From: Terriglobia bacterium
GTDB taxonomy: Bacteria > Acidobacteriota > Terriglobia > UBA7540
DNA length: 35,962 bases
Direction: 5' to 3'
Assembly: GCA_030041095.1 (NCBI GenBank)
Contig: JASHON010000117.1
Span: 1-35,962, forward strand
Below, piece after piece: positions 33,344 through 35,962 of the stretch (positions within the stretch are counted from its first letter, which is position 1; each line of letters starts with the position of its first letter). A program made the translations under genes and the position numbers. The notes beneath the pieces are model-generated. The model was not told the origin of the DNA. It did no database searches and was given only the letters and a program-made list of their open reading frames with translations.

Positions 33344-33415
33344 TGAGCCGGCTGGGACTCGAACCCAGAACCCCTGCCTTAAAAGGGCAGTGCTCTACCA
33401 TTGAGCTACCGGCCC
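33344..33415 (-). tRNA. tRNA-Lys (anticodon TTT)
   Basis: Minus-strand cloverleaf of 72 bases: acceptor GGGCCGG / CCGGCTC with one G-T pair, D-arm GCTC / GAGC, anticodon stem CTGCC/GGCAG around CTTTTAA giving TTT, T-arm CTGGG/CCCAG with TTCGAGT, discriminator A. The 3' CCA is not encoded (ATC follows the discriminator), unlike the other two tRNAs here. Confidence 0.94.
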
Positions 33416-33432
33416 GTAACCCGTCCTAAAAG

Positions 33433-33461
33433 AGGCTACAACACCGCGAGCGGGTTCGCAA
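33433..33461 (-). promoter_or_regulatory. Candidate promoter of tRNA-Lys (and possibly folD)
   Basis: On the minus strand TTGCGA (33456-33461), a 17-base spacer and TAGCCT (33433-33438), ending 18 bases before the tRNA. A weak match, supported mainly by its position. Confidence 0.3.
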
Positions 33462-33586
33462 AGAGGAAAATCGAGGGAAATCGACGGGAATCATGCAGGC
33501 AATCTGCGCGGCATCTTCTCCGTGTGTTGTACATTATGACGTGCGTCGATGGGGGACAAGTCCGTTGCAGGCATTTGCGTCTGAAA

Positions 33587-33916
33587 GTGGCGCTGAGCGC
33601 TGAAGGGCTATTCGGCATGGGCATTGCGGTCGGAGACTACGACAACGACCTCGACTTCCTGGTAAACAATAACGGCGAGCGCACGCAACTCTTGCGCAAT
33701 GACGGCGGGAACGCCAACCACTGGCTGCAATTGGTGCTTATTGGAACGCGGTCGAACCGCGATGGCGTGGGATCACGAGTGAAGTTGAAGGTAGGAGACC
33801 TGGTGTTGACGAGGCAAAAAAGGTGGGATGAGCTATCCATCAGCCCAAGAGTGGAAGAAGGGGAAGGCCTGGTCAAGCGTCCGTTTCCGCGCGTGCGCCC
33901 AGTGAAAGCCGGGTAG
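33587..33916 (+). pseudogene. FG-GAP/UnbV (ASPIC)-type protein remnant
   Basis: About 60-80 codons of a much larger secreted beta-propeller protein. Recognisable are GLFGMGIAVGDYDND (calcium-binding FG-GAP loop, with two residues of the usual DNDGDLD apparently missing), FLVNNNGERTQLLRND, then NHWLQLVLIGTRSNRDGVGS and RVKLKVGDLV from the UnbV domain. After that the frame continues without resemblance to the family. No signal peptide or start belongs to it; the upstream part of the open frame (from 33401) overlaps the tRNA. It is a leftover of a deletion or rearrangement beside tRNA-Lys. Confidence 0.65.
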
Positions 33917-33928
33917 GCGGCTGGTTCT

Positions 33929-35128
33929 TCATGCGCGCCTTGCGGTTTCCACGACAATCTCCGACTCCGCGGGCGGGTTAGTCACGAACAGGTCAACCAC
34001 TCGCCAGAGGACCCGTTCGTCGTCCGGCCTCAGTCTCTTCCAAACGATGCACGTGAGGCGATAGAGCGCGACGCCGGCTGCCGCTCCGAGAGTGTTGGTC
34101 ATAATGTCTGTCACGCCTGAGAACCGGGTCGGAATGCAGGACTGCAGAACCTCGACCGTCAAACTGAGCCCGCAGCCAATAACGATGGTCATCACAGCCG
34201 GACGCTTGATGCGTGAGAGCAGCAGAACGTAAGCGTAAGCAAGAAAGCCCAGAGGCACAAATCCTGCAATATTGATTGCTACGTTATTCCAATAGCTTTG
34301 GGCTGAATGATACTCATCCCATGGCCGTTCGAGAAAAACCTCGTGGAGTTCCCTGAACCGCGATGGTATGTAGAGGTCCGGGCCGGATCCCGCTCGATTG
34401 TGTACCACGCGGCCCGAGTGGCTCTCAAACAGATAGAGCACGATAGCACCGTCGCTTGAATTCTGAGGTGGCCGCCGGAGCCGTTTCCAGCTCTCGTACT
34501 GCCGAGCCACTTCTTCAGCCGTAAATTTCCTGTTGTACAGCGCCAAGCCTCGCAGGTCACCCATCCAACTCTCATCATCCACTGGTGAGTTAGCCACTAC
34601 CAGCCGCCCTGTGAGATATGCCGGATCCACACAAAACTGTTTCGACGCCTGAGTCAAGACACCGTTCACGTAGATTCGCGTGCCGTTCGCATCGCCGACA
34701 AGAGTGAGAAAGACAAGTGGTCGCCCACGGAAAACGTTGTTGGCAATCAGTATTGGAACCCCCGGGCCATGCTCGTTAGTCCAGGGTCCCTTCTCCAAAA
34801 CCAGCGCCGGATTGACTTGACGCAAGTAAAAGCCACCGGCATGACGTGGCCGGTAGAAAGCAATAATCGTGCCCAAATGCCAGGTAGTCTGGGGCCTCAG
34901 CCAGACCTCCAAGGTCCAGCCAGCCTGATTGCGCCAGTACGAGGGGGCGATAACCCCTTTGCTGATGAGGGTTCCGGGATCGTCAACGCGGACGCCGTTG
35001 GCCCGACTTAGCCACGAGACGTTGTTTGCGGGCGCATGAAACGGCCAGAGGCACGCCAACGCGATACCCGCGACGATGGAAAAGAACGCGACGCCGCGTA
35101 CTCTTGCCTTTAACCACATATTGTTCAT
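33929..35128 (-). CDS. VanZ-family membrane protein with an inserted LamG domain
   Basis: 399 residues. Membrane segment one (about 13-29) ends in CLWPF, as in VanZ proteins. Then comes a concanavalin A-like LamG domain (about 65-220): WTLEVWLRPQTTWHLG, PLVFLTLVGDANGTRIYVNG, WMGDLRGLALYNRKFTAEEV. The VanZ part resumes after residue 270 with NVAINIAGFVPLGFLAYAY, GCGLSLTVEVLQSCIPTR and DIMTNTLGAAAGVALY, then a soluble tail. So LamG appears inserted between the first and second membrane helices and would lie outside the cytoplasm, where it may bind glycan. Such proteins occur near exopolysaccharide/exosortase loci, which agrees with the ATPase at the right edge. The start is ATG 35128 or the one at 35119. 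Confidence 0.85.
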   Translation of the reverse strand: MNNMWLKARVRGVAFFSIVAGIALACLWPFHAPANNVSWLSRANGVRVDDPGTLISKGVIAPSYWRNQAGWTLEVWLRPQTTWHLGTIIAFYRPRHAGGFYLRQVNPALVLEKGPWTNEHGPGVPILIANNVFRGRPLVFLTLVGDANGTRIYVNGVLTQASKQFCVDPAYLTGRLVVANSPVDDESWMGDLRGLALYNRKFTAEEVARQYESWKRLRRPPQNSSDGAIVLYLFESHSGRVVHNRAGSGPDLYIPSRFRELHEVFLERPWDEYHSAQSYWNNVAINIAGFVPLGFLAYAYVLLLSRIKRPAVMTIVIGCGLSLTVEVLQSCIPTRFSGVTDIMTNTLGAAAGVALYRLTCIVWKRLRPDDERVLWRVVDLFVTNPPAESEIVVETARRA

Positions 35129-35634: not shown

Positions 35635-35962
35635 TCATTCCGCTCTTCTGAGCCGATCCATGATGGCGGCGAGGCCTTCGAACGTCTCAGCCAGCAAGGA
35701 GTCTGTGGATAAGGCGGCGCTCGGCGCCGCGCCAACCGGCGCGCTGTCCGTCAACTCGAAGTCCGCCGCAATCCCGTCGATGATCACTCCGTCCACCGGC
35801 TTCCGCTGGTCCGCAAACGCCGTGATCAGCGCCTGCTCGCACAGCAGATTGATCAGCCGCGGTATCCCCCGCGAATGCCCGTAAATCTTCGCCACCGCTT
35901 CCGGCGTAAAGACCCCTTCCCCCTCGCCCCCCGCTACCCGCAGCCGACTCGCAATATACCCT
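35635..35962 (-). CDS. ExeA/XrtA-locus-type AAA ATPase, C-terminal part (runs off window)
   Basis: The last 108 codons of an ATPase whose start lies beyond the right edge. The visible part begins GYIASRLRVAGGEGEG and continues FTPEAVAKIYGHSRGIPRLINLLCEQALITAF. This is the sensor-2/lid helix region of the GspA/ExeA-like AAA family found beside type II secretion, MSHA and exosortase/exopolysaccharide loci. The Walker motifs would be upstream and cannot be checked. The tail (about 45 residues after the lid) is acidic and alanine-rich. Together with the VanZ gene downstream it suggests that an exopolysaccharide or exosortase cluster continues to the right of the window. Confidence 0.82.
   Translation of the reverse strand, partial: GYIASRLRVAGGEGEGVFTPEAVAKIYGHSRGIPRLINLLCEQALITAFADQRKPVDGVIIDGIAADFELTDSAPVGAAPSAALSTDSLLAETFEGLAAIMDRLRRAE

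Follow-up and report, generated by a model that had tools for sequence, protein, structure and literature searches.

Domain architecture of the LamG-VanZ protein

The window, the whole 35,962-nucleotide stretch of Terriglobia bacterium DNA analysed here (contig JASHON010000117.1), carries near its end a 399-residue open reading frame that starts with ATG and occupies exactly 33929-35128 on the reverse strand. This frame and the features discussed below are as follows:

33929..35128 (-): LamG-inserted VanZ protein, 399 aa (open reading frame; Pfam VanZ and Laminin_G_3; 41 homologous loci)
35048..35125 (-): helix H1, residues 2-27, the first membrane helix, followed by the WPF motif at 28-30 (AlphaFold2 helix; conserved W28, P29 and F30; positively charged N-tail)
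34355..35020 (-): LamG or pentraxin-like beta sandwich, residues 37-258 (PF13385; fold match to PAPP-A LamG)
34220..34300 (-): VanZ helix H2, residues 277-303, with invariant N286 and GFxPxGF (alignment, AlphaFold2)
34139..34201 (-): VanZ helix H3, residues 310-330, with invariant E326xxQ329 (alignment, AlphaFold2)
34031..34114 (-): VanZ helix H4, residues 339-366, with invariant D341xxxN345 and G348, and invariant R335 and S337 just before it (alignment, AlphaFold2)
35635..35961 (-): XrtA/PEP-CTERM-type ATPase, a C-terminal piece cut by the contig end (TIGR03015 positions 200-266, E 1e-12; the fragment scores far below the curated cut-off)

Pfam places Laminin_G_3 (PF13385) at residues 68-208 (E 1.4e-13, 51.7 bits against a gathering score of 27.6) and VanZ (PF04892) at residues 254-358 (E 2.2e-17, 64.3 bits against 30.1). 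The first 36 of the 126 positions in the VanZ profile are left out of the match, which starts at position 37, so the preceding part of VanZ is not contiguous with the remainder. AlphaFold2, run on an alignment of 36 rows, predicted the full chain with a mean pLDDT of 89.2 and a pTM of 0.82. The model contains four long helices (residues 2-27, 277-303, 310-330 and 339-366) and a pentraxin-like sandwich with strands within residues 37-232. A preliminary description had proposed a LamG fold of some 200 residues between the membrane helices of VanZ. The order of the Pfam domains, the model and 41 homologous loci bear out that arrangement, although the insert is nearer to 220 residues in the model. 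The architecture is real and conserved, and the 41 loci rule out chance or misassembly as the source of the fusion. Within the genome (4.88 Mb, 207 contigs), the LamG-inserted gene is the only match to VanZ.

In a fold search, residues 42-258 matched the LamG domain of PAPP-A (Z 18.9, rmsd 2.7, 188 aligned residues) and residues 40-258 matched PTX3 (Z 17.4). The VanZ part was hardly probed by this search, since LamG filled the match list, and no solved VanZ structure was matched by sequence. In the LamG insert we identified no site for carbohydrate or calcium. Besides glycans, LamG folds, those of PAPP-A and the pentraxins among them, also bind proteins. The order of the motifs had raised the suspicion of a circular permutation in LamG, an idea abandoned once residues 42-258 proved colinear with pentraxins. 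Neurotoxin receptor-binding domains also came up as fold and sequence matches, which we attribute solely to the shared lectin fold.

Conservation of the VanZ core

The 36-row alignment comprises the window and 35 of the 41 loci; L068, L077, L080, L082, L084 and L088 were omitted as partial, frameshifted, masked or of unclear start. VanZ is found in all 36 rows at E 0.01 or better and Laminin_G_3 in 35. Mean pairwise identity is highest in H2-H4 (48.6%), followed by LamG (31.5%) and the C-tail (11.7%). Seven polar residues, N286, E326, Q329, R335, S337, D341 and N345, are invariant in 36 of 36 rows, as is G348.

According to Burroughs, Nicastro and Aravind 2025 (PMC12419801), VanZ-1 is a family of the lipocone superfamily, the core of which has four helices. 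Its motifs are an Asn in H2 and DxDDxxxN in H4, and an ExxQ motif in H3 allies related Skillet families with it. Several of the invariant residues described here match the H2 Asn, the H3 ExxQ and the DxxxN of H4. Taken with the match to the VanZ profile and an association with genes for Wzz, tyrosine kinase and exopolysaccharide, these are the features that the protein shares with VanZ-1 as that paper presents it. It differs from VanZ-1 in the LamG of about 220 residues within the H1-H2 linker and in the H4 motif: of DxDDxxxN it retains the final Asp and Asn, while the positions of the upstream Asp residues vary. Because the full H4 motif is absent, we claim membership only of VanZ (PF04892), with VanZ-1 as the nearest subfamily.

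Enterococcal VanZ is associated with glycopeptide-type antibiotic resistance, and the NCBIfam models VanZ-A and VanZ-F do match the protein weakly (E 8.9e-5 and 2.3e-5). The scores of 22.6 and 24.8 bits are, however, far from the respective cut-offs of 250 and 375, and no van gene was found among the scanned genes of the window. A role in such resistance is therefore extremely improbable.

Topology and the identity of helix 1

Of the 36 rows, 30 have a net positive charge in the N-tail, 35 in the H2-H3 loop and 31 in the stretch that follows H4. The mean charge over the rows is near zero in the other three segments, behind H1, ahead of H2 and between H3 and H4. This positive-inside pattern puts the N-tail inside and LamG outside. 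LamG is thus predicted from sequence to be extracytoplasmic: it would occupy the linker between H1 and H2 and lie on the side of the periplasm, which is also the predicted side of the active site. The earlier suggestion of an extracytoplasmic LamG agrees with the charge pattern, and a cytoplasmic placement was not obtained.

Helix 1 is most likely H1 of VanZ, because only three helices follow LamG and the lipocone core has four. Taken by themselves, the first 42 residues do not match the VanZ profile, which is why we infer this identity rather than read it from the profile. The preliminary description had helix 1 end in CLWPF. The WPF part of that motif proved nearly invariant (P29 in 36 of 36 rows, W28 in 33 and F30 in 32), whereas the Cys did not, the position being Gly in 23 rows, Cys in 7 and Ala in 6. 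By eye, a similar xP(F/L) closes H1 in several canonical VanZ proteins of the phylum (L011, L027, L028, L031, L042, L044, L119 and L132).

These observations bear on a different reading, in which helix 1 acts as a signal peptide that is cleaved off, or as a lipoprotein signal, and LamG is a secreted N-terminal domain ahead of a separate membrane domain. The positive N-tail and hydrophobic stretch do look like a signal peptide, the missing profile match of the first 42 residues would fit one, and so would a lipobox-like pattern seen in 4 of 36 rows. Moreover, the formula SP+X+TM+Lipocone is given for lectin fusions in PMC12419801, and the class that its authors describe by SP+X+TM may include LamG-inserted proteins. 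Such a peptide would nevertheless leave three membrane helices, one short of the four-helix core, and the nearly invariant WPF, which by eye resembles the H1 end of several canonical VanZ proteins, argues against it. The lipoprotein variant was rejected, as Cys26 is not conserved. Overall, we regard the signal-peptide reading as very unlikely and treat helix 1 as most likely a helix of the membrane domain, in keeping with the initial proposal.

Family and distribution

A search of genome contigs with the single protein returned no homologue, whereas an alignment of 13 rows fetched the 41 homologous loci. Most lie in Acidobacteriota; others come from bins labelled Ignavibacteria, 'Deltaproteobacteria', Opitutae, Neomarinimicrobiota and Spirochaetales, and the tree tool placed the 'Deltaproteobacteria' bins in Myxococcota. 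In the tree, the window belongs to one well supported group of 27 rows and the phyla are not resolved into clean clades, a pattern to be read with the caveat that bins may contain foreign contigs. At E<=0.001, matches were present in 10 of 61 genomes including the window's own, nine of them LamG-VanZ and one (G055) VanZ only. A phylum sample gave matches in 23 of 297 genomes, mostly over the VanZ part only, and a class sample gave matches in 28 of 299 genomes at E 1e-25.

A second mode of joining the two domains was also observed. In L056:4081-5679 (-) and L031:436-2715 (-), VanZ comes first and LamG lies on its C-terminal side; the gene in L056 is about 4 kb from a LamG-inserted VanZ.

Fusions of VanZ to lectins are not new in themselves. 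PMC12419801 describes VanZ proteins that carry concanavalin-like lectins at an end, as SP+X+TM+Lipocone or Lipocone+TM+X. Compared with those fusions, the present protein has both domain types on the same predicted membrane side, but its LamG lies within the VanZ domain and not at an end. As far as the text of that paper goes, LamG-inserted VanZ is a variant of the published VanZ-lectin fusions, and the insertion inside the VanZ domain is the new point. Literature searches on VanZ with LamG or laminin G found no relevant paper, judged by title. Nothing was found on VanZ with exosortase, nor on Acidobacteria with exosortase and exopolysaccharide, and among the matches listed for VanZ with concanavalin only PMC12419801 was relevant.

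Genomic neighbourhood

In the window, the truncated ATPase gene lies upstream of VanZ/LamG on the same strand, and about 500 bases separate the stop codon of the ATPase from the start of VanZ. The window end is 100% identical over 197 bases to the end of contig C120 and 97.8% identical over 323 bases to that of C188, and C185 bears another ATPase start, 99% identical to that of C120. C120 contains an exosortase, Wzz and the ATPase. C185 contains FemAB, a further gene, an exosortase and a 486-aa open reading frame before its ATPase start, an order that resembles the genes before VanZ/LamG in locus L050. Two joins past the window end are possible on this basis, both to exosortase-carrying contigs, and either would give a polysaccharide-type locus. 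As a separate observation on the assembly, near-identical repeated XrtA-type ATPase ends (window 35635-35961, C120, C185 and C188) break it at these points, and at least two copies seem to be present. Downstream of VanZ/LamG are tRNA-Lys and folD, which are unrelated. The window also holds an open reading frame at 33401-33916 (+) that has no Pfam match and is possibly a decayed gene; it looks like a fragment of an FG-GAP/UnbV-type repeat protein.

The operon context is clearest in L048, where FemAB, VanZ/LamG, Wzz, ATPase, tyrosine kinase, LuxR and exosortase follow one another on one strand; FemAB and VanZ/LamG overlap by 4 bases and the gap to Wzz is 7 bases. Neighbours matched models for FemAB (TIGR03019), a chain-length protein (TIGR03007), the ATPase (TIGR03015), a tyrosine kinase (TIGR03018) and exosortase. 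Exosortase/XrtA (PEP-CTERM) exopolysaccharide loci share all five, but in the neighbours described here the scores of the XrtA-specific models do not reach the curated cut-offs. To our knowledge, no VanZ/LamG model is among the XrtA-associated models.

At least one of five markers (exosortase, FemAB, Wzz, tyrosine kinase and ATPase) was detected near 13 of the 41 loci (exosortase near 8) against 1 of 20 VanZ-only controls (Fisher p 0.024), a rough comparison in that the profiles were built from the positive loci themselves, which span 555 kb against 327 kb of controls, and many contigs are short. Every hit printed for the 13 loci is on the VanZ/LamG strand. On shared contigs, the distance from VanZ/LamG to a marker is about 1.5 kb in G024, 2 kb in G457, 3.7 kb in G001 and 5.1 kb in G030, the kind of spacing to exosortase or exopolysaccharide genes that the preliminary description had suggested surveying. 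None of the five families was found near the other 28 loci, many of them on short contigs; some other loci carry a UDP-GlcNAc 2-epimerase, a UDP-glucose dehydrogenase-type, an acyltransferase or an ATP-grasp gene. No polysaccharide-type context was seen for distant members such as L075, L079 and L087, judged by the starts of open reading frames only. The supposed link to exopolysaccharide and exosortase genes therefore stands for Terriglobia relatives in such operons and is not universal.

Across genomes, exosortase occurs in 9 of 9 carriers against 20 of 52 others among the 61 genomes (p 0.0006) and against 13 of 28 others in the window's family (p 0.005); one of the nine, G003, has a partial match only, and G055, whose match is to VanZ only, is not among the carriers. 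A second exosortase class of lower score, drawn post hoc by bit score after the scores had been seen and with partial matches excluded, occurs in 6 of 9 carriers against 1 of 28 (p 0.0002). Class-wide, with exosortase in 21 of 28 carriers and in 162 of 271 other genomes, the co-occurrence does not reach significance (p 0.15), and 7 of the 28 carrier genomes in that sample lack exosortase. Since the association is significant among close relatives and not across the class, exosortase is a frequent companion of LamG-VanZ and not a requirement.

Three further gene sets were noted around the family. A family of about 450-500 aa (L050:6109-7473 (+) and relatives) lies near exosortase genes in several loci, and the member that was scanned has no Pfam match. 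Secreted-looking repeat proteins (cluster 1) are encoded near the LamG-VanZ gene in 15 of 43 neighbourhoods and are possible candidate exosortase substrates. In L065, L069 and L080 (gp2 Acidobacteria), a different conserved gene set (clusters 21, 22 and 6) is common just upstream of LamG-VanZ.

Proposed function

PMC12419801 predicts that membrane lipocones act on head groups in the outer leaflet, VanZ lipocone activity being itself a prediction, and links VanZ-1 to exopolysaccharide genes such as Wzz, Wzc and tyrosine kinase. The reading that we tentatively place first is that the protein is an inner-membrane, VanZ-1-type lipocone enzyme acting on a carrier-linked glycan, with LamG recognising the substrate; its activity, substrate, glycan binding and gating we infer. 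The VanZ part would act in the outer leaflet on a surface polysaccharide carried by undecaprenyl, its target being the phosphate-linked glycan head group, and LamG would bind the polymer and so choose the cognate chain. The chain might thereby be released or transferred, or the carrier recycled.

The preliminary description had instead suggested a sensor or an anchor for surface polysaccharide. As a sensor, LamG would detect surface or foreign polysaccharide and alter VanZ activity as a signal, without choosing a substrate. VanZ fused to extracellular lectins is read as ligand-regulated signalling in PMC12419801, and a LuxR-type regulator in some VanZ/LamG operons would fit such a role. Yet Pfam finds no cytoplasmic signalling domain in the protein, its C-tail is short and poorly conserved (11.7% identity), and the nearest neighbours in loci linked to exopolysaccharide are genes for synthesis and export, so that we consider a sensor rather unlikely. 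A non-enzymatic anchor or adaptor, in which LamG holds the growing polysaccharide at the inner membrane, or else a partner (Wzz or an exosortase substrate, for example), seems to us doubtful to a somewhat greater degree. The tight operon placement, with FemAB and Wzz genes on either side, and the protein-binding capacity of the folds that LamG matches best speak for it; the polar VanZ motif residues, invariant across 36 rows, would not be needed by an anchor. It is because the predicted active site is invariant that we prefer an enzyme with a substrate-recognising lectin to a sensor or an anchor.

A more specific form of that enzyme would be gated by its lectin. LamG, seated over the mouth of the VanZ active site, would recognise finished exopolysaccharide and trigger the detachment of this polymer from undecaprenyl phosphate or its transfer to an acceptor. 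We offer this version as speculation with a small chance of being right. If true, it would make the family a candidate for the last step, transfer or release, in the exosortase-linked polysaccharide loci of Acidobacteria.

What VanZ does has yet to be proven, and the LamG-VanZ family gives a concrete guess at a substrate, namely carrier-linked surface polysaccharide. This guess rests on a domain of lectin fold in an outer loop on the side of the predicted active site, and on adjacency to Wzz and FemAB in exosortase operons. The family may thereby also be relevant to the completion and attachment of exopolysaccharide in soil Acidobacteria.
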